From Abyssibacter profundi (GTDB taxonomy: Bacteria; Pseudomonadota; Gammaproteobacteria; Nevskiales; OUC007): a stretch of DNA of 64,000 nucleotides. Where the stretch lies: contig NZ_QEQK01000001.1 of the NCBI RefSeq assembly GCF_003151135.1, positions 62,001 to 126,000 on the forward strand. The letters are read 5' to 3'. Made by a program: the position numbers and the translations under genes. Positions 6,001 to 45,185 of this stretch are shown in pieces. The first letter of the stretch is position 1. Each line of letters begins with the position of its first letter. The notes beneath the pieces were generated by a model. It made no database searches, was not told where the DNA came from, and was given only the letters and a program-made list of their open reading frames with translations.

Positions 6001-6405
6001 GTCAAGCTGCAGGGTCTCAGTGGTCACCGCTATGCACTGGCCTGCAACGGCCAACAGGTTCCGCTGACGCCCACCGGGGTGGCTGGCGAAGCCGTCGCCG
6101 GCGTCCGTTTCCGGGCCTGGAAGCCCTGGTCTGCGCTACACCCGACCCTGGAGGCCGACTCGCCACTGGTCTTCGATCTGGTCGACACCTGGAACCAGCG
6201 GTCGGTGGGCGGCCTGACCTACCATGTCGCGCATCCGGCGGGCCGCAATTACGACAGCTTCCCGGTCAATGCGTATGAGGCCGAATCACGGCGCCTGTCC
6301 CGTTTCGAACCGCAGGGTCATACACCCGGCCGATTCGAGTGGAGCGGTGGTGGCGCTTCGCCGGATTATCCGACCACGCTGGACCTGCGACGATCAGCGG
6401 TTTGA
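3100..6405 (+). CDS. Transglutaminase-like / DUF2126 fusion protein (predicted peptide ligase-protease)
   Basis: At 1101 residues this matches the large two-part bacterial family. An N-terminal transglutaminase-like domain (about residues 1-270) is joined to DUF2126 (about 300-1100), which published domain analysis relates to glutamine-synthetase-like amidoligases. The papain-like triad is visible: Cys185 in KGRGSCRDSAWLL, His234 in DLHAWCEVY and Asp250 in GLDSTSG. Members are usually encoded with alpha-E (DUF403) and circularly permuted ATP-grasp proteins. Neither is next to this copy; instead it is divergent from a zinc metallopeptidase. Proline-rich sequence around residues 560-610 looks like a linker. 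It overlaps the 3' end of the opposite-strand MMPL gene by 12 bp. The biochemical product is unknown; peptide tagging or bond cleavage is inference. Confidence 0.85.
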   Translation: MSIVVALNHRTTYRYDRPVSLTPQIIRLRPAPHTRTAIQSYSLKIRPEPHFLNWQQDPHNNWQARVVFPEQVRHFEIEVDLHADLAVFNPFDFFIEDWAEDVPFVYPDGLAEDLAPYLETPLPASHLGRRFAGLLNAMEPRKPVRTIDFLVGLNQHIANEIDYVIRMEPGVQTPEETLAKGRGSCRDSAWLLAQLLRHMGYATRFCSGYLIQLKPDVKSLDGPSGTDVDFTDLHAWCEVYIPGAGWVGLDSTSGLFCGEGHIPLTATPEPSAAAPVTGGVDPCEVEFEHDMSIQRMLETPRVTKPYTESQWSAIDALGGKLDSILDAGDVRLTQGGEPTFVSIDDFEAPEWNTAAVGPTKQGRARELIGRLAERIAPGGLMTFGQGKWYPGESLPRWAYSLYLRRDGQAILDAGLSDTPADLPESEWVGKAQAFGAQLAEALALNPEYAQPLYEDPWHYLEQERNLPENLDPSDPKLDDPEARRRLTRVFERGLGTPTGYVLPIQRQNSRAGKPWISELWKTRTRHLFLLPGDSPAGFRLPLQSLPWVPEDDYPHVTPDDPTAEKPPLTDARQPVQPGRRVEERSAEPSPQPAARETGPVRTALTIEPRDGRLQIFMPPTQNAQDYLDLVRAVESTARALDVPVRIEGYPPPSDPRLDKLSVTPDPGVIEVNVQPVANWQDMKAQTFGLYEDARQCRLGTEKFLIDGRAVGTGGGNHMVLGGPTTQDSPFIRRPDLLGSLIRYWQNHPSLSYLFSGLFIGPTSQSPRVDEARDDALYELEIALSQLPRQGDSAPPWLVDRILRHLLTDLTGNTHRSEICIDKLYSPDSATGRLGLVEFRGFEMPPHAQMSLVQQLLLRALIAWFWDAPYEAPLNRFGTTLHDRFLLPEFCWNDFLDVLGDLRAAGFEFEDDWFAPHFEFRFPAHGSVTYRGVHLELRHALEPWITLGEEPGGGGTARYVDSSTERVQVKLQGLSGHRYALACNGQQVPLTPTGVAGEAVAGVRFRAWKPWSALHPTLEADSPLVFDLVDTWNQRSVGGLTYHVAHPAGRNYDSFPVNAYEAESRRLSRFEPQGHTPGRFEWSGGGASPDYPTTLDLRRSAV

Positions 6406-8796
6406 CGCCGGCGCCCAACGCCGAAGCATGGCCGGCAGCAGCGTCAAATCGGTGATCAGCGCGACCAGCATGGCCAAGGCTGATAGCAGGCCGAACAGCA
6501 CGCTGGGCACAAAGTCGGAGAATGCCAACAGGCTAAAGCCGCAGACGATGATCAGCGTGGTATAGACCAATGCCGCCCCGACGGTCCGGTGACTGTGGGC
6601 AATGGCTTGGTCCACCGCGGCACCCGACTGATCCTGCTCGCGAAACCGGTGGACGTAGTGGATGGTGTCATCCACTGCGATGCCCATGGCCACGGAGGCG
6701 ATGGTGATGGTCATGAAATCCAGGGAAATGCCCAACCAGCCCATGACGCCCAGCACCGAAAAGGCGCACAACAGGTTCGGCACCAAGGCGATCAGCGCGA
6801 TACGCAGGGAGCGGAAAATGACCGCGAAGGCCAGCCCGAGGACCACGAACACCACTGCCAGCGTCAGGGCCTGGGACGTGAAGAGCTGCTCCAATAGATC
6901 CTGGTAGAGCACGAACAGGCCCGTGAGCAAATAGTCGTCGCGTGTCAGCCCCTGGTCGGCAAAGCCCGCATGCAGCCGGGCGAGCAGGTCGCCACGATCC
7001 AGATCAGCGGTGGTATCGATGATGCGGGCCGACAGCCGTAACTCCCCTGCAGATTCCGAGAAATAGCTGCGCACCAGATTCTTGCGCATGGACTCATCCA
7101 GCAGCCAGTAGACGGCTGTGAGCTCGGTTTCGGTCAGGGGTCGATGGCTGTTCAGCGCCCGAGCCAGCTCGGTGAAATTCACCAGTGACAGGACCGTTCC
7201 CATCGCGGGCTGGTCCTCCATGACGGCCTGCATACGCTGCAGCTGTTGCACGGTTTCGGCCCGGATGACCCGGTTGCCGGAGGCGGGGCCACCGCCGGGG
7301 ATGCGGTACACCACATCCAGCGGCGTGGAGCCGCCGAACTGCCGATCGATAAAGCGCAGTTCCTGGTGAATGCGCGTGTCGTCTGCGAAGTAATCGATAA
7401 AACTGTTCTCGACATCCAGTCGCAGGGTGCCGACGACCACCACCGTCATCACCAGCACAGCGGCGAGCAACACCCACCCGCCGCCTCGTGTGGCCAGCGA
7501 GCCGAGCCTCTCGACCAGCCCGCGAACCCAGCGCGGGTCGGCCTGGGCTGATCCGCGGCGCATCATCAGGAGCACCGCCGGGAACAACACCAGGCTGGTC
7601 AGTATCGAGATCCCCATGGCCAGCATCATCATCCAGCCAAACGCACGGACCGGCTCGATGTCCGTCAGCGTCAGCGACGCAAACCCCACCGACGTCGTCA
7701 GCCCGGCATACAGGCAAGGCGCAAGCTTGGCCCGCAGCGTCCGGGCGACCAACGCAGCTTGGTCGGCTTGGGCGTCGGCCTGGGCTTCCTCGCGGTACTG
7801 GACCACCAGGTGCACCACAACCGCCAGCGTCAACACGAGCTGCAGAGCGATGAAATTGGCCGAGATGACCGTCGCCTTGAGACCCAACAGGCCGAACAGC
7901 CCCATGGTCATGCCGACGCTGACCGCGCAGCACAGCAAGGGCAGCACCACCCAGCGCAGGCGGCGGAACACCAGCAGCAGGACCAGGCTAATCATGCCCA
8001 GCACCGCCAGACCGAAGACCTGTAGATCGCTACGCACCATGCGGATCAAATCCACACCGAGCACTTCGGCGCCGCCCAGGTAGACATCGGCGTGATCACG
8101 GTATGGGTCGGCGAGCTTTCGCATCTGCGCGATATCCGCCACCCGCTGTCGACGCTGTGCCTGCTCCAATGGGCGGGCCTGGGCACGCAGACGCGCCAAC
8201 GCCTGCTCTTGGTCGGGTGACAGCTCGCCATCGAGTCGCTTGGCCTCGATGCGGACTTGCTCGGCCTGCAGTCGGTCCAAGCGCGGGTCGCTCCGAAACA
8301 GCACCTGCAGTGCGGTGGCGGTCAGCTCCTGGTTCACCAGGAGTCCTTCGTAGATGGGGTGGTGATCCAGCGTCTGACGCAGTGCCGCCGGGCTGCTGTC
8401 CCGACGATCGAGCAGCCAGGCATCCGGATCGAAATCGTCACGCAATCGCGCGCTGGCGTCAGCCGGGATCAACGGGACGTTGACCAGGGATCGCACCGAA
8501 GCCACGGATGGCAACTCGGCCAGCTCGTCTGTCAGCGATCGGATATCGCGTATGGACCGGGCATCGAACAGGCCATGATCGCGGGGCGCATAGGCCACCA
8601 GCACGAATGCCTCTGACGGAAAGCGCTGTTGCACCAGCCGTGCCTGCAGGTAGTCACGGTTCCCTTCGGACAACAAGGTGTCAGCTGAGGCATTGATCTC
8701 AAAGCGGGGCACGAAGACCAGCAGCACTGCTGCCAACACCGCGAAGGCCCCCACCACCCAACCACGGCGGTGCACGAGCTGCTCGGCAACGCTCAC
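6394..8796 (-). CDS. MMPL/RND-superfamily lipid exporter-like protein
   Basis: The 800-residue protein has the RND superfamily plan: one N-terminal transmembrane helix, a large periplasmic loop (about residues 35-245), a bundle of five helices, and then the same arrangement again (helix near 440, loop to about 620, last bundle to 795). Such MMPL-type proteins move lipids or hydrophobic compounds across the inner membrane using the proton gradient. A GTG start overlaps the stop of mlaA (GTGA), so translation is coupled. The gene order pldA-mlaA-MMPL suggests a role in moving phospholipids or related lipids between membranes. Hopanoid export by the related HpnN is an alternative model, but no hopanoid genes are in the window. 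Confidence 0.85.
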   Translation of the reverse strand: MSVAEQLVHRRGWVVGAFAVLAAVLLVFVPRFEINASADTLLSEGNRDYLQARLVQQRFPSEAFVLVAYAPRDHGLFDARSIRDIRSLTDELAELPSVASVRSLVNVPLIPADASARLRDDFDPDAWLLDRRDSSPAALRQTLDHHPIYEGLLVNQELTATALQVLFRSDPRLDRLQAEQVRIEAKRLDGELSPDQEQALARLRAQARPLEQAQRRQRVADIAQMRKLADPYRDHADVYLGGAEVLGVDLIRMVRSDLQVFGLAVLGMISLVLLLVFRRLRWVVLPLLCCAVSVGMTMGLFGLLGLKATVISANFIALQLVLTLAVVVHLVVQYREEAQADAQADQAALVARTLRAKLAPCLYAGLTTSVGFASLTLTDIEPVRAFGWMMMLAMGISILTSLVLFPAVLLMMRRGSAQADPRWVRGLVERLGSLATRGGGWVLLAAVLVMTVVVVGTLRLDVENSFIDYFADDTRIHQELRFIDRQFGGSTPLDVVYRIPGGGPASGNRVIRAETVQQLQRMQAVMEDQPAMGTVLSLVNFTELARALNSHRPLTETELTAVYWLLDESMRKNLVRSYFSESAGELRLSARIIDTTADLDRGDLLARLHAGFADQGLTRDDYLLTGLFVLYQDLLEQLFTSQALTLAVVFVVLGLAFAVIFRSLRIALIALVPNLLCAFSVLGVMGWLGISLDFMTITIASVAMGIAVDDTIHYVHRFREQDQSGAAVDQAIAHSHRTVGAALVYTTLIIVCGFSLLAFSDFVPSVLFGLLSALAMLVALITDLTLLPAMLRRWAPASNR

Positions 8797-9668
8797 GGCT
8801 GCGCCTCTTCTGGATAGGCGGCGTTTCGAAGTTCGCCTTGCCAGTAGAGATCCCGCATGAACAGGTAGGGATCTTCCGCCTGCTCCCGCAGCTTCACGTA
8901 CTGCTGTACGCGCGGCCCGTTGTCTTGAAAGGCGTCGAACACGTTGAGCGCCGTGGCCTCGGGCTGATCGACCAGATACGGAATCGGATTGAGCAGATAG
9001 TCCACCAACAGCCCGGATCCGCTTCGTAGATCCGACGGCCCGTAGAACGGCAGCACGATAAAGGTGCCCTGTCCGCTGCCATAGCGCTGCAAGGTCTGAG
9101 CAAACCCGGTCTGCTGTGCCTCCAGGCCGAATAGAGACGCCGCCGGATCGAACAACCCCGCCAGACCTAAGGTGGAATTCACAACAAACCGTGCAGTATC
9201 AATGCCGGCGCTACGAAACTTACCCTGGAGCAGGAAATTAACGGTGCGGATCGGCATTTTGATGTTGTCGAACGCATTGCCGATGCTTTGTCGAACCGGT
9301 TGCGGCACGGCCGCTTCATAGCCCCGGGATAGCGGCGCAAAAGCGTACCGATAGGTCACGTCATTGAACGCAAAGACCGCCCGATTAAACCCCATCAGCG
9401 GATCGGATGGGGGCTCGAAGCTGACCACCGTGGGCTCGATGGCCTTGGCCGTCTCCGGCACCGGCGTGCCGTCGGGCTGGGTTTCGGCGATGACGGATGG
9501 CGTGGACGAAGCGTCCCCTGGATCCACCGGGGTAGACGCGCAACCCGCCACCAGCAGCCAGATCGCCCACGCAACCATCACACGGAGCATCCGCCCCGCG
9601 CGGGGCAGGCTGCGGTTTCGGGATCGAAGCCCGCCAAAACCCCGTACTGGCGACATGTGGACCTGCAT
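8793..9668 (-). CDS. mlaA: MlaA/VacJ-family outer-membrane lipoprotein
   Basis: MlaA sits in the outer membrane and removes mislocalised phospholipids from its outer leaflet, passing them to MlaC. The lipoprotein signal peptide ends with the lipobox LVAGC in MLRVMVAWAIWLLVAGC. Family motifs include DPLMGFNRAVFAFND, a segment reading YGPSDLRSGSG, and YLLNPIPYLVDQPEA near the C-terminus. The ATG at 9668 was chosen because AGGGAGT lies six bases ahead; an ATG at 9590 would give a shorter, classic signal peptide and is a serious alternative. The gene lies between pldA and the MMPL gene and overlaps the latter by four bases. No mlaBCDEF genes are in the window, so they would have to lie elsewhere. 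Confidence 0.9.
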   Translation of the reverse strand: MQVHMSPVRGFGGLRSRNRSLPRAGRMLRVMVAWAIWLLVAGCASTPVDPGDASSTPSVIAETQPDGTPVPETAKAIEPTVVSFEPPSDPLMGFNRAVFAFNDVTYRYAFAPLSRGYEAAVPQPVRQSIGNAFDNIKMPIRTVNFLLQGKFRSAGIDTARFVVNSTLGLAGLFDPAASLFGLEAQQTGFAQTLQRYGSGQGTFIVLPFYGPSDLRSGSGLLVDYLLNPIPYLVDQPEATALNVFDAFQDNGPRVQQYVKLREQAEDPYLFMRDLYWQGELRNAAYPEEAQP

Positions 9669-9795
9669 GGCGACTCCCTGTCGTCGATTGGCCGCATCCC
9701 GCGACCTGTCCTCCGCCCTTAAAGTCCGACCATCAAACCGGGAAAATGTTGCGGCCCGGCCGAGGACACCCCGGATGGCCTCACACCTCACACCT

Positions 9796-33244: not shown

Positions 33245-34600
33245 CTACTCCGAGAATCCGCTGCCGGTATCGAACCGCCCGTTCTCAAACAGCAGCAACT
33301 CTCCGAAACCCGGGCGATAACCGTCGAGTTCCGCGCCAGGCAACGGCGGAGTTTGCGCGCCGGCGGACAACGGACGAACGATCGTCGGGGTGACGACCAT
33401 GATCAGCTCCCGCTCGTCTCGCGTGTACTGACTGCTTCGGAAGAAAGCGCCAAGAATCGGGACGTCCCCCAGGAAGGGAATTTTGTCGACACTGGACTGC
33501 AGGCGGTTGCTGATCAAGCCGCTGATCACGAAGCTCTCGCCATCGCCCAGTTCAATGGTGGTATCCGTGCGACGCACAGCCAGCCCCGGGACGGCAACAC
33601 CACCGGACTGGAATCCGGAGTTGAAATCCAATTCGCTGACTTCCGGCGCCACCTTCAGTGCAATCCGGTCCGCTGACAATACGGTGGGACTCATGGTCAA
33701 CCGGACGCCAAATTCCTTGAACTCGACGGATACCGCATTGCTATTGCCCTGGACCACGGGGATTGGAAATTCGCCACCGGCCAAGAAACTGGCCTGCTGA
33801 CCACTGGCCGCCACCAGGCTGGGTTCGGCCAGCGTCCGAGCCAGCCCTCTGCGTTCGAGCAGGCTGATGACACCCAATACGCTGTTGGTCGCGTCACCGA
33901 TCGCCAGCTGAAACGCATCCTGAACCGCCCGAAATCCGGAGCCCGACGCCAGGTCAAAGCTCCCCAGCTCCTGATTCTGCGCGATACCCGACAAGGCGCC
34001 CGGTGGCGACACCGTGACCGTGGTGTTCAGCGAGTTCTTGATGAAGTTGAACCCAAACTGCTCCAGCGTGGTGCGGCTGACTTCGACGATCTTGATCGCG
34101 GCATGCACCTGGGTATCCACGGCGACGGTGGACGCATCGACCGCTTCGGCCGCGTCGCCTTCCGCACTCTGGGCGCGCGCCCTGCGATGGGCCCCCAGGC
34201 TGGGCACCTGCCCCGCCACCCCCTGACCCGGCACAACGCGCGCCTGCGCGAGATCCGGATCCTCAGGTAGTTCACCCGCAGGATTCGGGGGTTGGCCCAC
34301 CATCACCCGATACTCTTGCGGCGCACCTGCATTGCGCCCCCAGATCAACAGACTGGTAATCCCCATCGCCTTGCCGGTCACCAGCACTTCGCGGCGATTG
34401 ATCACATTGACGTCGGCCACGCTGGGATCGCCAACAGCCACGCGTTCGATATCTGCCGACTGGCGTAGCAATTCATGGGTCCCTTTGTCGACCTGCAAGA
34501 CTTGGCTGTCTGGCAGGTACGCGACCGCCAGTCCCGCCGTCAGACTGAAGATGACCGCCAAGACCAGTCGCCCCATGCTCAGACCCCTGTGCATCATCAT
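33245..34600 (-). CDS. rcpA: Tad secretin RcpA/CpaC
   Basis: RcpA forms the outer-membrane channel through which the Flp pilus leaves. The 451-residue protein has a signal peptide (GRLVLAVIFSLTAGLAVAYL), an N-terminal pilus-secretin domain with IERVAVGDPSVADVNVINRREVLVTGKAMG, and the C-terminal secretin core including SVEFKEFGVRLTMSPTVL and ELIMVVTPTIVRPL. The loop around DKIPFLGDVPILGAFFRS is the classic secretin signature. It starts inside the cpaB stop (four-base overlap). Confidence 0.94.
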   Translation of the reverse strand: MMMHRGLSMGRLVLAVIFSLTAGLAVAYLPDSQVLQVDKGTHELLRQSADIERVAVGDPSVADVNVINRREVLVTGKAMGITSLLIWGRNAGAPQEYRVMVGQPPNPAGELPEDPDLAQARVVPGQGVAGQVPSLGAHRRARAQSAEGDAAEAVDASTVAVDTQVHAAIKIVEVSRTTLEQFGFNFIKNSLNTTVTVSPPGALSGIAQNQELGSFDLASGSGFRAVQDAFQLAIGDATNSVLGVISLLERRGLARTLAEPSLVAASGQQASFLAGGEFPIPVVQGNSNAVSVEFKEFGVRLTMSPTVLSADRIALKVAPEVSELDFNSGFQSGGVAVPGLAVRRTDTTIELGDGESFVISGLISNRLQSSVDKIPFLGDVPILGAFFRSSQYTRDERELIMVVTPTIVRPLSAGAQTPPLPGAELDGYRPGFGELLLFENGRFDTGSGFSE

Positions 34601-35481
34601 GGCCGCACCGACTCCAGTTCGTTGGCTCGGTAGACATAAACCGGTGGTCGCACCCTTCTCTCCGTGGCGGGCGTTTTCTTGTCGATACCAATCAGCTCCT
34701 CTCGGGTGATCACATCGGCGGTTTGATCTGCAACGGCCTTCACCGCGTCAGGTGCCAGCGGCAGTCCGGTGGTCTGGCCACCCTCATCTGTCGCCGCCTG
34801 ACCGTGCAAGGCCAAGCGCAGTTCGCCCAGATTGGCGCCGAGCATCACACGCGTCACGTCGGCCTCCGGCACGGCGACTACCGCGGTACGGATGCGCTGG
34901 CGCCGCGTACTGCTACTCTCATCCACGCCTTCGGGTCGGTCAATCACGCGCTCTTCATAGCCCAATACCAACGCGCTCCTGAGCAAATACCGCGCCTGGG
35001 CGTCCTGTGTCCCGCTGCCTCGCAGGAACACCAGCACATCCACGGTATCGCCTGGGCGCACGAAGCCCCCGACTGCGACGACCTCATCAATCTGCAGTGA
35101 CATGGCCTTGCTGCCGGCGGGAATAATGCGGGCCAGCACGTTGGCGTCACGGAAGTATCGCGGAGTGACGGGCGCACCCGCGTCGATATCCACGAGCGGT
35201 ACGCGCCCGACGACATCATCGACATTGGCAAAGTAATGTGCGGGGGCAATCGTAACCGGCGTCAGCGCGACGTCATCACGCCGGATCTGGACATTGGCCG
35301 CCAGCGGCTGCAACGCCACCACAACCAGCGTGGTGGGGGCGACCTCTTCCTGCTCAGACGCTTCCGGCAAAGGCTGGGGCGTGCGGGCGTACTCCACGCT
35401 GATGCGATAGGCCACAAGCCCCGCCAAGCCGGCGATCACCAGCATGACGATGGCCAGGATCTTCATCGCTGAGCTGCTCAA
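34597..35481 (-). CDS. cpaB: Flp pilus assembly protein CpaB/RcpC (SAF domain)
   Basis: CpaB is a periplasmic, membrane-anchored protein that works with the secretin. The 294 residues open with a transmembrane anchor (MKILAIVMLVIAGLAGLVAY), followed by a SAF domain starting LVVALQPLAANVQIRRDDV and the conserved DIDAGAPVTPRYFRD. The next block AMSLQIDEVVAVGGFVRPGDTVDVLVFL is the strongest family signature. An ATG five codons into the ORF (MKILAI) is an alternative start. It overlaps the secretin gene by four bases. Confidence 0.94.
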   Translation of the reverse strand: MSSSAMKILAIVMLVIAGLAGLVAYRISVEYARTPQPLPEASEQEEVAPTTLVVVALQPLAANVQIRRDDVALTPVTIAPAHYFANVDDVVGRVPLVDIDAGAPVTPRYFRDANVLARIIPAGSKAMSLQIDEVVAVGGFVRPGDTVDVLVFLRGSGTQDAQARYLLRSALVLGYEERVIDRPEGVDESSSTRRQRIRTAVVAVPEADVTRVMLGANLGELRLALHGQAATDEGGQTTGLPLAPDAVKAVADQTADVITREELIGIDKKTPATERRVRPPVYVYRANELESVRP

Positions 35482-37739: not shown

Positions 37740-40313
37740 CTAGTGACTGGTAAGCCCCGTCTTGGCCGCGCTCTCCTTGGTGACAAGGAAATGGGCTAGC
37801 GCAGGCATCACCAGAATGGCCCCGAACATGTTCGCGGTGAACATGAAGACCAGCAGAATGCCCATATCGGCCTGGAACTGCAGGGCGGAGAATAGCCAGG
37901 TCCCCACGCCCAGCCCCAGCGCGACACCGGTAAACACCACGGCCTTACCGGTCTGTGACAGCGTCCGGTAGAACGACTCTTCCAGCGTCATACCGCGATT
38001 CACGCCATCGGCGAGCTGACTGTAGACATAAATCCCGTAGTCCACGCCAATCCCCACGGCCAGCGCGACCACCGGCAGCGTCGCCACCTTCAGACCGATA
38101 CCCAGCTGCGCCATCACGGCATAGGCCATCACCGAGACGAGCGACAGCGGCAGCACGACACAAAGCACGCCGGAGATCGATCGGAACGACAGCCACAGGA
38201 AGGTCACGACCACGACGTACACCCAGAACACCACCTGGATTTCCTGGGCTTCGACCACCTCATTGGTGGCAGCCATCACACCGACGTTCCCGGACGCCAG
38301 CGCAAAGTTCACCGGACAGAACTGCTCCATCGCGGCGAACTCGTCCTCGACTTCCCCGTAGCGCGTGTTCAGCGCTTCCAGTTCCTCGGCGCGCGTGGCG
38401 TTGGGCTCCGCGGTCTGCAATGCGGCGAGATTGTCGCGTTCCATGCGCATACGGCCCAACTGATCACGCTTGGCGCTTTTCTCGGCACAGTACTCGCGCG
38501 TGACCTCGGGATGCTCCTCGTAGAAAGCCTCCCGATTGGCCTCGTTAAACGCTTTGACCGCATCGGTGATGGTATGGATCGTCGTCGCCTTGTGATCCTT
38601 GGTGAAGATCAGCACCGGCATGGCCGAGCAATCCGGGTTCAGCAGGCCCGACGAGGTATCCACCGGCGTGATCGCCTGCACGATGACATAGCGGTTGCGA
38701 GGCAAGACCCGCCAGGCCAATGAGCCTTCATTCCAGCCCGCGTTGATGATTTTGGCGACCTGCGGCAGCGAGATAACCGACTGGACCTCATCCGTGAGAT
38801 TGCTCATCTCCCAGGCGAACCGGTCGATGGTTTCCATCTGCTCGTAGCGAATACAGGCTTCGGGGGCCGTTTCGGCAATGACTTTGAGGATATCCACGCC
38901 GATGGAGAAATTATCGACGATCGCCCGTGAATCCTGGTTATAGCGCGAATCCGGCCGCAACTCCGGCACGCCAGCCTGCGAATCACCCACCAGCAGGTCG
39001 TCGTACTTCCAGATCGACCACCCCAGCAGGATTGAGCAGATCAGCAGGGTCACGATCGCCGGGGTACGGCGTGTGTTCTTGGCAATCAGGCGCCATAGGC
39101 CATCGCCAAACCGATCACGAACGGCCTGCTTGCGCTTGAACTCCTCGACGTTCCCGATTTTGATCCAGGTCAGCCAGATCGGCATCATCACCTTGTTGGT
39201 CACGATGATCGCGGCCACACCAAAGGCGGCGTTGAGCGACATCTCACGAATAATGTCGATCGGAATCAGGTAGATCGTTGCAAAGCCCGCCACATCGGTG
39301 ATCAGGGCGGTGGTGCCAGGAATCGCAAGGCGCCGGAAGGTCTGCAGCGATGCATCAAAGCTGTCACGTCCGTTATGCGCGACCTCTGCCACCCAGGCGT
39401 TGGCGTACTGCACACCATGCGAGACCGACACCGACAACACCAGGAACGGCACGAGAATCGCAAACGGGTCCAATCCGTAGCCGAATAGTCTGAGCAGACC
39501 GAACTCCCAGATCACGGCCACGATAGAACAGACCAAGGGCAGGACCGCCAGCTTGAACGAGCCGGTGTAGAACCACAGCAGCACCAGCGTCATCAGCAAT
39601 GTCAGCAGGAAGAAGCCCACCACTTCCAGCGTTGCATCGGTGACATCGCCCACCACCTTGGCGAAACCGATGATGTGGATCTTGATGTTCTCGGTTTCGT
39701 AGGTTTTACGGATCTCTTCAAGCTGGTGCGACACCTTGCGGTAGTCGAGCTTCTCGCCGGTAATCGGGTCGAACTCGAGCAGCTCGGCATTGACCATCGC
39801 CCCGGTCTGATCCTGCGTCACCAGACGTCCGATAATGCCGGCCTTGCCGACATTGGTCTTGATCAGGTCGAACATCTCCTCATTGGGCTGGTATTCGGCC
39901 GGGATGACGTTGCCACCCGCGAATCCGCCCTCGACCACCTCGGTGTAACGCACATCCGGCGTGAACAGCGAGGACACACGAGAGCGATCCACCCCCGGGA
40001 TGAAGAAGACCTCATCGGTCACCTTGCGCAGCGTATCGAGGAACTCTTCGTTGTAGAGCTCCCCCTCTTCCTGGATGAGCGCCACCTTGATGAGGTTGCC
40101 GCCTCCGAAGGCGGATTGGTACTGCTTCAGCACCTTCATGTACGGATGTTGAAGCGGGATCGACTTCTCGAAACCGGCGTCTGGCTTGATCAGCGCCGCC
40201 TGATAACCGAAGAAAGCCGTGAGCAGCACCAGCACCAACATGCCGAGGCCGCGACGAGCGTAGACGAGGGGTTCAACGACTCGAAGAATGTCGTCGGTAG
40301 TGATCATTCGCAT
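37740..40313 (-). CDS. RND-superfamily exporter (MMPL/HAE3-like) of the DUF1302 cluster
   Basis: The 857-residue protein has the duplicated RND plan: helix 1 near residue 25, a large periplasmic loop, helices near 215-400, a second loop (about 450-680), and the last six-helix block to 845. The second loop contains an unusual charged coiled-coil-like stretch (RDQLGRMRMERDNLAALQ). It is probably driven by the proton gradient and moves a hydrophobic substrate through or from the inner membrane. AGGAA lies seven bases ahead of the ATG. It is the last gene of a four-gene run with YCF48-like, DUF1329 and DUF1302 genes. Substrate unknown; generic drug efflux is less likely because there is no adaptor or TolC gene. 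Confidence 0.88.
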   Translation of the reverse strand: MRMITTDDILRVVEPLVYARRGLGMLVLVLLTAFFGYQAALIKPDAGFEKSIPLQHPYMKVLKQYQSAFGGGNLIKVALIQEEGELYNEEFLDTLRKVTDEVFFIPGVDRSRVSSLFTPDVRYTEVVEGGFAGGNVIPAEYQPNEEMFDLIKTNVGKAGIIGRLVTQDQTGAMVNAELLEFDPITGEKLDYRKVSHQLEEIRKTYETENIKIHIIGFAKVVGDVTDATLEVVGFFLLTLLMTLVLLWFYTGSFKLAVLPLVCSIVAVIWEFGLLRLFGYGLDPFAILVPFLVLSVSVSHGVQYANAWVAEVAHNGRDSFDASLQTFRRLAIPGTTALITDVAGFATIYLIPIDIIREMSLNAAFGVAAIIVTNKVMMPIWLTWIKIGNVEEFKRKQAVRDRFGDGLWRLIAKNTRRTPAIVTLLICSILLGWSIWKYDDLLVGDSQAGVPELRPDSRYNQDSRAIVDNFSIGVDILKVIAETAPEACIRYEQMETIDRFAWEMSNLTDEVQSVISLPQVAKIINAGWNEGSLAWRVLPRNRYVIVQAITPVDTSSGLLNPDCSAMPVLIFTKDHKATTIHTITDAVKAFNEANREAFYEEHPEVTREYCAEKSAKRDQLGRMRMERDNLAALQTAEPNATRAEELEALNTRYGEVEDEFAAMEQFCPVNFALASGNVGVMAATNEVVEAQEIQVVFWVYVVVVTFLWLSFRSISGVLCVVLPLSLVSVMAYAVMAQLGIGLKVATLPVVALAVGIGVDYGIYVYSQLADGVNRGMTLEESFYRTLSQTGKAVVFTGVALGLGVGTWLFSALQFQADMGILLVFMFTANMFGAILVMPALAHFLVTKESAAKTGLTSH

Positions 40314-40352
40314 GGGGAATTCCTTTAGGGCGCGCCGATTGGCCGTCGTCGA

Positions 40353-41294
40353 CTAGCGAAGCTCGATGATGTGACTGCCGCGGTCACCCACGGCCAGAAG
40401 ACGCCCGTTATTCACGAGCACGCTGTTGAGGCTGACACCCACGCCGTTAGGCAGGCGCTCCATGGCACGGCCGTTGTTGACGGTTTTCAGCACCGTGCCA
40501 TTCAAACCGACGATGACCGCACCGCCGCCTGGCAGGGCAGCGCCGCCCAGCAGGGTCTGACCGGTCCCTGTCTCGACCTGGGTCCAGACAATGTCCTCAG
40601 CCGAGGTCGTCCAGTACGCATTGCCGCGTAGACCGATGATCATAAAGCCGGCATCACCGAAGGGAACGGCATCGAAGTACGAGCCCGCATAGGGCGACGG
40701 CGCCGAGGTCCAGGTTTCACCCGCGTCACTGGATACGGCGACCGTACCGCTTTCGCCAACGATGACCAGATGACCATTATCGAGACGGGTGATGGCGTTG
40801 AAATGCCACTCGTCTTCGCGCACCGGTGTCTCGTGTTCTGTCCAGGTCTGCCCCCCATCCGAGGTTTCGTAAAAGAGGCTGTAGGCGCCGATGGCAAACC
40901 CGCGCTGCGGCGTCAGGAACAGCACGTCGAGAAACGGGCGCTCCAACTCAGGTTCAAAGTTTTGCAAGGACCAAGTCTGCCCGCCGTCGTCGGTATGCAC
41001 GATGACGGCATCGTGGCCAACGGCCCAGCCATGCTCGTCATCCGCAAAGGTGACGGCGGTTAGCGTTGCCCGTGTCGGCACCTCGGCCTGCACCCAGTCA
41101 TGGCCATCCAAAGAGGCCAGCACATGGCCACGTTCCCCGACGGCGACAAACCGGGGGCCCGCGTTAACGGCATCGAGCAACAGGCTTTCCGAGGCCAGCG
41201 GCATCATCTGCGCCGGGTGATTGTCAATCTCAGCGGCGTTGGCCAGCCCGGTTGCGGCCAAGACGGCCGCCAGGGCAACGGTGCATCGCACCAT
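40353..41294 (-). CDS. Secreted YCF48-like beta-propeller protein
   Basis: The 313-residue protein has a signal peptide (MVRCTVALAAVLAATGLANA) and then repeated YCF48/BNR-type blades. Repeats of the form GWAVGHDAVIVHTDDGGQTW, RGFAIGAYSLFYETSDGGQTW and GTVAVSSDAGETW recur every 40-50 residues. The related plant and cyanobacterial protein helps assemble photosystem II, but bacterial homologues such as this are periplasmic and typically encoded with an RND pump. The ATG at 41294 was chosen: AAGGAGA lies ahead; a GTG 14 codons upstream would extend the signal unnaturally. It may serve as a periplasmic adaptor between the pump and the DUF1329/DUF1302 proteins (inference). Confidence 0.85.
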   Translation of the reverse strand: MVRCTVALAAVLAATGLANAAEIDNHPAQMMPLASESLLLDAVNAGPRFVAVGERGHVLASLDGHDWVQAEVPTRATLTAVTFADDEHGWAVGHDAVIVHTDDGGQTWSLQNFEPELERPFLDVLFLTPQRGFAIGAYSLFYETSDGGQTWTEHETPVREDEWHFNAITRLDNGHLVIVGESGTVAVSSDAGETWTSAPSPYAGSYFDAVPFGDAGFMIIGLRGNAYWTTSAEDIVWTQVETGTGQTLLGGAALPGGGAVIVGLNGTVLKTVNNGRAMERLPNGVGVSLNSVLVNNGRLLAVGDRGSHIIELR

Positions 41295-41359
41295 AGTGTG
41301 TCTCCTTTGTCCGCGTGTGCGCCGCACTGCGCCCACGATCCTGCAAACCGAGCTAAGTG

Positions 41360-42715
41360 TTAACGACGTGCGAGCTTCTTGACGTTGGACGGGTTGAAGT
41401 AGGTTTCCCAGTCCACGTCGATCGAATAAGTCTCGTCGTCTTCGTTGTTCATTGCCTGCACCAGATACCGATTCGCAAGCAGGTCGTAAACCGATTCAAG
41501 CACCGGTGCCAAGTACGGCACATCGTAGGCCATTGCGGTATGGCTTTCCTGAACACGCCACAGCTCATCACGCTTGTCGTAGATATCCACCGCAACAATC
41601 TGCCACGAGTCTTCGTCCACGTAGAACGTGCGCCGCTTGTAGATGTGGCTGGTACCGGCCTTAAGCGTGGCATCGACAATCCAGACGCGGTGCAACTCGT
41701 AGCGCGTCAAATCCTGATCGATATGCCCACGCTGGATGATGTCATCGTAGTCGTACTCGTCCGAATGAATCTTGTAGCTATTGTAGGGCGCGTAGATTTC
41801 AGTCTTGCCCACCAGCTTCCAGTCGTAACGATCCATGGCACCGTTGAAGGTGTCCGTCTGGTCGTTGGTTCTCAGGCCGTCAGAGCCAGTGCCGGGATTG
41901 TCGTAAGCCACGTTGGGCGCACGTCGCAAACGACGCTGGCCCGGGTTGTACAACCAGGCAGCACGCGGCTCCCTAAGCTGGTCCATGGTTTCGTGCACCA
42001 GCAGGATCTGACCGGCCAGACGCGGCGGCTCGGTCGTCACCTGGAGGAAATACAACAACACGTTATCCAGATCTTCCGGCTCGATACCGGGCTGGCTGTA
42101 CCGGAAGGTCACATCCTCACGGAGCTTGACGAGGTTATACGCACCACTGGATGTCACGGCCGCCTGATTGTTCCACCGGCGCACGGAAAAGTCGCGATAG
42201 CGCGTCTTGTGGTTCCAGATGACCTCATGGCCGTTCTTGGGAATCGGAAACGGCACGCCGGTCACAGCGCCGGTCACCGTATCGCCACCGCCGCTTAACT
42301 CCGCGTTGAGCGCGTTTTCCTTGGTGGCGTCGTAGATGAACTGCGGATTGGCGAAGGTCCGCCGGGTTTCGTACACCGGCATGACATAGGTTTCCGGGTA
42401 ACGCTCGAACAGGGCGAGCTGGCCCACCGTCAGCTTGTCTCGGTACTCGTCGAGGTTGTCGGCGGTGATGACGAACTGCGGCTTGTCGTCAGGGAACGGG
42501 TCGGTGTATCGACGACCCGCCCCCTTGTATGACCGTGGAGCTTCCTGGAGCCCGCCCTCCCAAGGCGGCAAACCCAGGGCCTCATCGCCCGCCTGGACGG
42601 CACCGACCGGTGTCAGCGACTTGCTAAGCTCGTCGGCTTCTTCCTGGGAGACGCCGGCAGTCGCCGCCCCTACGCTAAGGCCACCCATGGCCAAGCCTGC
42701 GATCCAGTGACGCAT
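41360..42715 (-). CDS. DUF1329 protein, LolA-like periplasmic carrier
   Basis: The 451-residue protein has a signal peptide (MRHWIAGLAMGGLSVGAATA) and the family opening SQEEADELSKSLTPVGA. Characteristic blocks include YRDKLTVGQLALFERYPETYVMPVY, PNVAYDNPGTGSDGLRTNDQ and RTFYVDEDSWQIVAVDIYDKRDELWRVQE in part. DUF1329 is related to the outer-membrane lipoprotein-sorting (LolA/LolB) fold, which shelters lipid chains, so a periplasmic lipid-like carrier role is plausible. GGGGAG precedes the ATG. It lies 49 bases after the DUF1302 gene and 65 before the YCF48-like gene. Function is not established for the family. Confidence 0.88.
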   Translation of the reverse strand: MRHWIAGLAMGGLSVGAATAGVSQEEADELSKSLTPVGAVQAGDEALGLPPWEGGLQEAPRSYKGAGRRYTDPFPDDKPQFVITADNLDEYRDKLTVGQLALFERYPETYVMPVYETRRTFANPQFIYDATKENALNAELSGGGDTVTGAVTGVPFPIPKNGHEVIWNHKTRYRDFSVRRWNNQAAVTSSGAYNLVKLREDVTFRYSQPGIEPEDLDNVLLYFLQVTTEPPRLAGQILLVHETMDQLREPRAAWLYNPGQRRLRRAPNVAYDNPGTGSDGLRTNDQTDTFNGAMDRYDWKLVGKTEIYAPYNSYKIHSDEYDYDDIIQRGHIDQDLTRYELHRVWIVDATLKAGTSHIYKRRTFYVDEDSWQIVAVDIYDKRDELWRVQESHTAMAYDVPYLAPVLESVYDLLANRYLVQAMNNEDDETYSIDVDWETYFNPSNVKKLARR

Positions 42716-42764
42716 GCAATCTCCCCTTATCGCGCCCGCGGCGCTGTTGTTATATCGATTGAGA

Positions 42765-45011
42765 CTAGAACGTGTAACCGAGATAAACCGACACGTTGTC
42801 CCTGTCTCGACGCGAGTTGTAGTCCGACCCGCCGGTGAACGTGGTCAGCCGCACTTCGCCGATCCACTTGTTCAGATAATCGAAGCGCAGCCCCGTCAGG
42901 ATCTGCTTGTTGCCTTCGACGAAGTTCTGCCCCAGACCCGGCGCGATGCCGTTGACGTCCCAGAAGAAGCCCAGCAGCGGCTCGATGTTGGCGCCGAACA
43001 AGGCGTTCTGGTAGCGGAACAACGCCACGGCGCGGATACCCCATGAGAAACGCGTCGGGAATTGATCCAGCGGCTGAGCGGTCGGGTTCTGTCGGCACGT
43101 ATCGTCACAGACACCCAGGTTGGCGCTATCGAAGCCGTTCGTCGTGCTGTCAGCACCAACCGAGGCGTGGGTATTCACTTCGGCCCCATTGAACTGCAAT
43201 TCGCTCAGCTCTGGCATGTCTGGGAACAACGTCCCGCCGAACTCGAAGATGCCGATGATCTGCGAGGCATCAAACCAGTTCGCACCACCCCAGGTATTCA
43301 GCAGTGTGAACTGCATCTGGTGGACCTTCTGGGGCTCCCAACCGCGGATGTAGTAGTTCTCCACACCATCCATGGTGCCGTCGGGATCCACCGGATTATC
43401 ACGATAAAGCGTGTTCACGAAGTCCGGAACCGCTGCACGACGACCTGGCACCGTGGCCACGCCCGGAATCTCGATCGAGTTCTCCGGGAAGGCTGGCTGC
43501 AGGGCTGCGTAGACCAGATCGGTCGAGTGCACCTGGGTGGGCAGGTTTTCGCGGAAGGAATACTCGCCCGAGAACGCCAGATCACCCACGGTGGTGTTGA
43601 ACGAGAAACCGTAGAGCTTGATGTCTTCCGGATACTCCACGAACAGCTGCAGCGTATCGACCGGCAGGGCGCTGTCGCCGCCAGCGGCAATGAAGCCGTT
43701 GCAGTCGATGGCCGCTTCCAAGGCCGTGGTGCTGCTGCCGCTGATGCAGGTGGGGTCCGCCGCATAGGCGGACACGCTTGGAATGCGGGCATGGTAGTTG
43801 GAGTAATACAACGCCAGTTCGGTGCCGTTGTTCAGCCAGCTGGCGAAGTACTTCAGCGCCACACCATACTGACCATCGTCCTTGGGACGCACGTCATCGA
43901 CTCGCATCACGGTGCGGCCTGAATCGGTCAAGGCGCCGGACGAATCATTGGCGCTGTTGTCCGCAGACGAATAAATATTCTCCGGATCTTCTGGCGCCTT
44001 AGAGAAGGACAGCATGGCGTAGGTTCCGCCTGCGCCCACGGTATCGCTAACCGAGAAGAAGGTGCCCACGGGGTCGGCAATCGCCGGCTTCCACTCGTAC
44101 TGGTAGAAGGCCTCCATGAACAGGTCGGCGGTCAAGTCGGTGCTAATGAAAGCCATGCCCACGGCCTGGAACGCTTCTTCCAGCTGGAAGCCCGGTAGGC
44201 GAGCACGCACGCCATGCGGCGGATTCACCGCGTTGATGCTGTTGAAGACCAGCGCGGTGGACTCACCCCAGTTCACACCCTGGCGGCCGACGCGCAAGAG
44301 AATCTCGCGATCACCAAAGAACGGCAGGTAACCACTGACGTGGTAGCTCGACCAATCGAAGCTGGACCCTGCCAGACGATCCACGGCGGCCGGCCGCGGC
44401 GTGGAGGCAGGCTGCAAGGTCGTATCCGGATGCGTTTGGTCGAAATTGACGGAATCGGCGTCGAACAAAAAGATCGGGTTGGCGTAGAAGCTCAGCGAGC
44501 CACCAATCGGGAACGGCATGTCAAAGCTGATCTCCGAGTTCAGCTTCACCGCAGCCGACACGACATCGCCCTTGTCGTAGTTCAGGTTGCCGTTGTCCGA
44601 GTTCGGCGAAAACGACCCCGGAGCAGCAACGAATTCCTCGTTGGCGTCGGCGAACCGGGGATCATTCGATTCTGCGGTCGCCGAACAGGCGCCGTTGATC
44701 GCACCGGGTTCGTAGGTCAACGGACCGGCGGCGTCCGGATTACCGGTTCGGTTGGTCCGAACACAAAGGCCGGGATTCAGGTTGGACTTGCCGATCAGGT
44801 GTTGCGCCCGATCCTGCACACGCCAAGCGGCGCCGGCGGTCAGCAAGCTATCGACACTGCCCTCGAACGGACCGATCTCGAACTGGACTGCGGTGGCCGT
44901 GGAGCTCACCCCCACCAGCATCGCTGCCGCACTGCCCAGTAGTGCACTACGCACGGACGGCATACACCACTTAGCGCGCTTGGTCGCACGCACAACATTC
45001 AACATCGCCAT
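42765..45011 (-). CDS. DUF1302 predicted outer-membrane protein
   Basis: At 748 residues this matches the DUF1302 family. A signal peptide with a long charged n-region (hydrophobic part SALLGSAAAMLVGVSSTATA) is followed by FEIGPFEGSVDSLLTAGAAWRVQ and blocks such as LRVGRQGVNWGESTALVFNSINAVNP, which recall outer-membrane beta-barrel proteins. The chain ends with alternating aromatic residues in VSVYLGYTF, a typical barrel C-terminus. It is the first gene of the cluster and has its own 174-bp leader with a hairpin and a possible promoter. It probably forms the outer-membrane end of the export route (inference). Confidence 0.87.
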   Translation of the reverse strand: MAMLNVVRATKRAKWCMPSVRSALLGSAAAMLVGVSSTATAVQFEIGPFEGSVDSLLTAGAAWRVQDRAQHLIGKSNLNPGLCVRTNRTGNPDAAGPLTYEPGAINGACSATAESNDPRFADANEEFVAAPGSFSPNSDNGNLNYDKGDVVSAAVKLNSEISFDMPFPIGGSLSFYANPIFLFDADSVNFDQTHPDTTLQPASTPRPAAVDRLAGSSFDWSSYHVSGYLPFFGDREILLRVGRQGVNWGESTALVFNSINAVNPPHGVRARLPGFQLEEAFQAVGMAFISTDLTADLFMEAFYQYEWKPAIADPVGTFFSVSDTVGAGGTYAMLSFSKAPEDPENIYSSADNSANDSSGALTDSGRTVMRVDDVRPKDDGQYGVALKYFASWLNNGTELALYYSNYHARIPSVSAYAADPTCISGSSTTALEAAIDCNGFIAAGGDSALPVDTLQLFVEYPEDIKLYGFSFNTTVGDLAFSGEYSFRENLPTQVHSTDLVYAALQPAFPENSIEIPGVATVPGRRAAVPDFVNTLYRDNPVDPDGTMDGVENYYIRGWEPQKVHQMQFTLLNTWGGANWFDASQIIGIFEFGGTLFPDMPELSELQFNGAEVNTHASVGADSTTNGFDSANLGVCDDTCRQNPTAQPLDQFPTRFSWGIRAVALFRYQNALFGANIEPLLGFFWDVNGIAPGLGQNFVEGNKQILTGLRFDYLNKWIGEVRLTTFTGGSDYNSRRDRDNVSVYLGYTF

Positions 45012-45093: not shown

Positions 45094-45121
45094 GGGGCTG
45101 CCTGCTCTCCTCTGCAGCCCC
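45094..45121. promoter_or_regulatory. Hairpin in the DUF1302 leader
   Basis: Perfect eight-base arms GGGGCTGC and GCAGCCCC (45094-45101 and 45114-45121) lie just downstream of the putative promoter on the minus strand. The structure would be near the 5' end of the mRNA, where it could stabilise the transcript or mark a regulator site. Confidence 0.4.
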
Positions 45122-45125
45122 GCCT

Positions 45126-45154
45126 AATATTCTCGGCGGTATTTAAGCAGACAA
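45126..45154 (-). promoter_or_regulatory. Putative promoter of the DUF1302 cluster
   Basis: On the minus strand TTGTCT (45154-45149) and AATATT (45131-45126) are separated by 17 bases, each four of six to consensus, in an AT-rich patch unlike its surroundings. The leader would be about 110 nt. Confidence 0.35.
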
Positions 45155-45185
45155 AAATTCCCACCGCAACGAACACTTAGCGCAT

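Follow-up and report, generated by a model that had tools for sequence, protein, structure and literature searches.

A four-gene cassette of the AmeABCD type in Abyssibacter profundi is a likely two-module transporter of hydrophobic compounds

We examined a 64,000-nucleotide stretch of the Abyssibacter profundi genome (the window, from whose first letter positions are counted unless another locus is named), in which four minus-strand open reading frames fill positions 37740-45011. The first encodes a DUF1302 protein of 748 amino acids (42765..45011), a predicted outer-membrane beta-barrel of the AmeA type with an N-terminal signal peptide. It is followed by a DUF1329 protein of 451 amino acids (41360..42715), which has a signal peptide and would be a periplasmic carrier of LolA fold (AmeB type); a YCF48/HCF136-like secreted beta-propeller (AmeC type, 40353..41336); and an HAE3/MMPL-like RND inner-membrane pump of 857 amino acids with two large periplasmic loops (AmeD type, 37740..40313). 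The gaps between the genes are 49, 23 and 39 nt. Both the content of the cassette (DUF1302, DUF1329, YCF48/COG4447 and HAE3-like RND together) and its A-B-C-D order on a single strand are those of an AmeABCD-type transporter. An earlier note on this DNA had described these four frames as together spanning the envelope; the frames lie at the positions it gave, Pfam and NCBIfam confirmed its account of the families, and the trans-envelope architecture was supported. Neither an adaptor (membrane fusion protein) nor a TolC-type protein was found in the cassette with Pfam, so that it does not belong with HAE1 tripartite efflux systems (AcrAB-TolC), and no Rfam structured RNA family was found within it. 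The upstream neighbours are pgeF and rluD, which share the cassette's strand, and bamD, which does not; downstream lies apaH on the opposite strand, with Flp/Tad pilus genes (RcpC, secretin; 33245-35481) beyond it. At 6394-9791 of the window, an MMPL/sterol-sensing RND gene directly adjoins an MlaA lipoprotein gene, and the two may form a second pair for lipid transport in the envelope.

The leader with a promoter-like pair and a hairpin that had been proposed for the cassette held up in part. Upstream of the DUF1302 gene, on the minus strand, TTGCGG (45164-45169) and TTAAAT (45141-45146) are separated by 17 nt, and this TTGCnn-17 nt-TTAAAT block (45141..45169) was invariant or nearly so in four related genomes (that of the window, L032, L033 and L034); a strict sigma-70 scan of the leader nevertheless returned no promoter. 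A hairpin on the same strand (45094..45121) has an 8-bp stem, GGGGCTGC/GCAGCCCC, and a 12-nt loop containing the conserved, purine-rich GAGGAGAGCA. All 8 pairs were retained in L032 and L033 through two compensatory G-C to A-U changes, giving three genomes with the hairpin, but it was absent from L034, and the folding energy of the whole leader was not unusual (z = 0.09). The hairpin could be a post-transcriptional control site.

We obtained AlphaFold2 models for the first two proteins, whose families have, to our knowledge, remained without names so far. The DUF1302 protein matched Pfam PF06980 (E = 1.6e-143), and its model (pLDDT 81.4) gave 228 PDB matches at E <= 0.001. The best 50 of these were almost all outer-membrane porins, channels or barrels, among them OmpF, AlgE, OccAB and MOMP, and they place the protein with the membrane barrels at moderate TM-scores of about 0.5 on the targets. 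The model thus predicts a porin-like outer-membrane barrel, as had been proposed, and its PDB matches reject the non-barrel fold that the earlier note had named beforehand as counting against the proposal. The DUF1329 protein matched PF07044 (E = 1.5e-148) and LolA_like (7.4e-10). Its model, built from an alignment of 53 sequences, had a pLDDT of 93.4, and the best PDB matches in Foldseek were the Porphyromonas gingivalis protein LolA3 (9tp6, TM 0.85 on target length) and a DUF1329 protein (4z48, 0.78). These matches are those of a LolA-type half-barrel, and they bear out the likeness to LolA given in the earlier note.

The third protein matched PSII_BNR (YCF48) at E = 3.1e-23 and, with phmmer, the solved Ycf48 structures at 1e-24. 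Its frame opens with a GTG at 41336, and an internal ATG at 41294 gives 313 amino acids with a signal peptide. Because a signal peptide heads the shorter form only, the true start is probably ATG 41294, with the GTG too far upstream. The pump matched MMPL (E = 1e-15), and its best NCBIfam match was HAE3 (TIGR00921; 4.2e-38). Since its 130.9 bits lie below the curated cut-off of 351.9 bits of this best family, we call the pump HAE3-like only. It scored 55.4 bits on the HpnN model, against a cut-off of 751.85 bits. Its nearest solved structures are the hopanoid transporter HpnN and the MmpL proteins. In an alignment of the pump's family, TM4 carries an invariant S298-H299-G-x-Q302, and its counterpart helix in the second half an invariant D758-Y759; Q814 and D816, close to the end of the protein, and Cys487 and Cys562, both in the second periplasmic domain, are invariant as well. 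The cassette pumps keep the Asp-Tyr pair in the second half only, and this single pair together with S-H-G-x-Q suggests an unusual proton relay. The other MMPL/RND proteins of this genome that we compared do not carry the TM4 motif, which therefore can be used as a signature of the cassette pumps.

The order nadE-bamD-rluD-pgeF-(cassette)-apaH was the same in many members of the bacterium's order. In a tree of 118 pumps, those from this core locus grouped together, with 3 label changes compared to 17 in shuffles. The C6 and C9 pumps of this genome branched inside the core-locus clade and the C11 pump branched earlier, and the closest relatives of the window copy were Abyssibacter and Salinisphaerales records. 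By its conserved locus and the pump tree, the window copy is old and vertically inherited in its order; it may be the general-purpose one. Several relatives lacked DUF1329 at the core locus, others lacked DUF1302 and one lacked both, whereas the pump and propeller were retained. These losses reject the idea that the four genes always move as a single unit, and mean that one operon need not supply a fixed complex of all four proteins.

We then considered how closely the four families are coupled across a phylum sample (249 genomes drawn across the phylum, with matches listed per genome). Among the matches listed, a cassette-type RND was found in 27 of the 249 genomes and DUF1329 in the identical 27; DUF1302 was found in 29, of which 26 were common with the pump (Fisher's test, p about 8e-31, a value inflated by the relatedness of the genomes). 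At 40 pump loci from this sample, our own genome excluded, YCF48 lay within 6 kb of the pump in 39, and all three partners did so in 30. These 40 loci and the tree of 118 also place the window's pump in the lineage found in AmeABCD-type cassettes. Distance matrices of the four families were correlated in 86 complete cassettes (r = 0.75-0.87) and within the order (r = 0.59-0.86); none of 500 shuffles reached any of these correlations, although relatedness inflates such statistics as well. The association is far above chance, and chance clustering of the four genes is rejected. The 30 loci with all four genes agree with the earlier statement that the families cluster in other Proteobacteria. Rare co-occurrence in a neighbourhood search had been set beforehand as a reason to abandon the proposal; because the genome-level match, the locus linkage and the distance correlations were all strong, the search that was run does not give that reason.

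The same sample revealed that the pump with its propeller and the barrel with its carrier behave as separate modules, which is new here. Among the matches listed, 52 of 82 DUF1329 genes had no pump within 9 kb, and DUF1329 adjoined 33 of the 36 DUF1302 genes that had no pump. Of 26 genomes (again among the matches listed), 14 had more DUF1329 genes than pumps, 12 had as many of each, and none had fewer; within the order DUF1329 genes exceeded pumps in 12 of 12 genomes (126 vs 45). No genome of the phylum sample had a listed DUF1329 match in the absence of a pump, and two genomes of one pump-less genus in the order had neither DUF1329 nor DUF1302. This linkage and copy-number pattern is read most simply as several barrel-carrier pairs sharing the pump-propeller pairs. 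It suggests that one pump would serve many exchangeable barrel-plus-carrier pairs. In Pseudomonas putida, PP_0765/0766 (DUF1302/DUF1329) and PP_2018/2019 (a periplasmic protein and an RND) are all needed for growth on Tween 20 (PMC10866462); these unlinked pairs with one growth phenotype therefore lend genetic support to pump sharing.

DUF1329 was also found in a different setting. In this genome, at L028:5460-11037 (C5:289459-295036), a DUF1329 domain is fused C-terminally to the TPR protein of an ExbB/DUF3450-ExbB-TonB operon, in a 912-amino-acid open frame. The operon is conserved in four relatives (L201, L202, L203, L204), making five genomes of the order, and the fusion also occurs in a single genus from a different family in the class. 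Two genomes have a gene for an HAE3-like RND immediately upstream of the operon. The placement of this domain in a TonB/ExbB operon hints at import.

The paralogous loci of this genome provided evidence on cargo. Flanking the C11 cassette (L024:1749-19434; C11:5748-23433), whose order is RND-DUF1329-DUF1302-YCF48, are two ferredoxin-P450 pairs together with genes for a GMC alcohol dehydrogenase, ferredoxin reductase and cholesterol oxidase; solved alkane hydroxylases of the CYP153 type match both of the P450s. FadA, FadJ, FadE and an AraC regulator are next to the C9 cassette. An orphan DUF1329 gene follows an acyl-CoA ligase, an orphan DUF1302 gene is beside a secreted lipase and a glycerol-3-phosphate oxidase-type enzyme, a DUF1329-DUF1302 pair is beside a serine esterase, and another orphan DUF1302 has a RoxA-like protein (rubber oxygenase) a few genes away (L029:8358-16678, C18). 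Linkage to hydrocarbon genes was therefore found for the C9 and C11 paralogues, whereas the window cassette has no catabolic neighbours. We did not treat such linkage as defining the AmeABCD type, because the location of a gene is no part of the machine. Published work links homologues to monoterpenes (PMC6394551), to long alkane (PMC6304351), to the aromatics benzene (PMC13101534) and toluene (PMC7012976), and to phenanthrene (PMC3110197). Because the paralogues adjoin catabolic genes, hydrophobic carbon compounds from outside the cell (acyl lipids, alkanes, isoprenoids) fit better than the cell's own envelope lipids and are the most likely cargo. The window copy's own cargo we infer, because it has no catabolic neighbour to name one.

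Taking these results together, we consider it likely that the cassette is an AmeABCD-type tetrapartite transporter of hydrophobic compounds made of two modules, a statement that is neutral as to direction. The pump module would consist of the HAE3-like RND, driven by protons, and the YCF48 propeller, which probably docks on the periplasmic domain of the RND. The barrel-carrier module would consist of the DUF1302 outer-membrane barrel and the DUF1329 LolA-fold carrier, with DUF1329 shielding a hydrophobic molecule across the periplasm. The same few pumps may also serve several other barrel-carrier pairs encoded in the genome. As to direction, we lean slightly to inward delivery over efflux, at a likelihood a little short of even.

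Efflux or detoxification, a direction-specific version of the same explanation, is a substantial though lesser possibility. The RND would extract hydrophobes from the inner membrane and pass them to DUF1329 for release through DUF1302, so that the cell is protected while it grows on toxic hydrocarbons. Export is known for characterised MMPL/HAE3 relatives, HpnN and MmpL among them. Efflux is also the published conclusion on AmeABCD of Castellaniella defragrans, a cassette of the four families whose deletion lowers both growth on and tolerance of monoterpenes; the mutant cells accumulated slightly more Nile Red when treated with CCCP, from which the authors argue for export, but the difference was small and present only with the protonophore (PMC6394551). 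The failure of the P. putida mutants on Tween 20, a carbon source, also speaks against efflux (PMC10866462), as does the fusion of DUF1329 into TonB/ExbB operons. Moreover, there are fewer pumps than barrels and carriers. TolC-type export is the reverse, and known efflux systems have many pumps for one exit duct. A pure exporter is disfavoured because of the carbon-source growth phenotype, the many barrels with few pumps and the TonB-operon fusion.

Inward delivery could be elaborated into a receptor-style import of hydrophobes, which we put forward tentatively and with some doubt. Many substrate-specific DUF1302-DUF1329 pairs would share a few proton-driven YCF48-RND pumps, much as a single TonB complex serves many outer-membrane receptors, and DUF1329 would be a general periplasmic carrier that is energised either by an RND or by TonB/ExbB.

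The earlier note had favoured lipid export parallel to Lol, Mla or Lpt, and we now regard such a role in envelope lipid biogenesis, with the cassette exporting an endogenous lipid to the outer membrane, as improbable. It would account for the LolA fold of DUF1329, for HpnN and MmpL being the nearest solved RND relatives, and for a vertically inherited copy that sits among housekeeping genes. However, the paralogues sit in catabolic clusters, the system is present in only 27 of 249 genomes (among the matches listed), and one genus of the order lacks pump, DUF1329 and DUF1302 in the genomes examined. SQHop_cyclase_N had no match in the genome, and hopanoid export is rejected on the missing squalene-hopene cyclase. 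Less probable still is a role of the system in delivering or activating a lipase or esterase of the outer membrane or extracellular space, which would explain the Tween-20 phenotype and fits the orphan DUF1302 beside a secreted lipase, the DUF1329-DUF1302 pair beside a serine esterase, the lipoprotein-carrying LolA relatives and an earlier suspicion of hydrolase activity quoted in PMC10866462, but leaves unexplained the CYP153, benzene, toluene, phenanthrene and monoterpene clusters, where no lipase is needed.

How very hydrophobic nutrients pass the whole Gram-negative envelope is an open question. The exact genome-level coupling of pump and DUF1329, the separable modules and the TonB-linked fusion make both direction and pump sharing simple to test by deletion.

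The closest known system is AmeABCD of C. defragrans 65Phen, which we compared by its published description (PMC6394551). Families and order are the same (DUF1302, DUF1329/LolA, COG4447 YCF48-type, HAE3 RND) and protein sizes are similar, DUF1329 having 451 amino acids in both, although the DUF1302 protein (605 amino acids vs 748 here) and the RND (787 vs 857 here) are shorter there. Monoterpenes induce AmeABCD, which forms part of a catabolic island for these compounds, whereas the window copy has pgeF and apaH as its neighbours and no catabolic genes around it. P. putida has the same DUF1302-DUF1329 and periplasmic protein-RND pairs, unlinked there but in one cassette here, and contacts have been predicted for DUF1302-DUF1329, DUF1329-RND and RND-PP_2018 (PMC10866462). 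The 'Nanopod' cluster of Desulfobacterota ORM2a, associated with benzene degradation, brings together a porin-like protein, DUF1329, a YCF48-related protein and an MMPL transporter, but includes a universal stress protein gene and belongs to a distant bacterial phylum; its authors state that the transport direction is unconfirmed (PMC13101534). Thalassolituus TOL_3187/TOL_3188, induced by long-chain alkanes, has an MMPL pump with a LolA-like domain beside a porin, but there the carrier is fused to the pump and no YCF48 is reported (PMC6304351). Our genome has its own copy of this layout at L023:9109-13613 (C9:139108-143612), where an RND pump that carries a LolA-like domain fused to its C terminus lies beside a short DUF1302 protein. 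The AupAB alkane uptake proteins were rejected as the same system, since the text of the AupAB paper describes a FadL-type barrel and mentions no RND, LolA or DUF protein. HpnN and MmpL (HAE3/HAE2) share the RND fold of the cassette pump but have no four-gene cassette, and the invariant S-H-G-x-Q of TM4 belongs to the cassette pumps. The earlier note had taken the cassette for one of unknown kind, yet AmeABCD was already published with the same four families (PMC6394551). Judged by families and gene order, the window cassette belongs to the AmeABCD kind. What we add is a quantified coupling, the split into modules, the ancestral locus, a signature for the pumps and the DUF1329 fusion linked to TonB.
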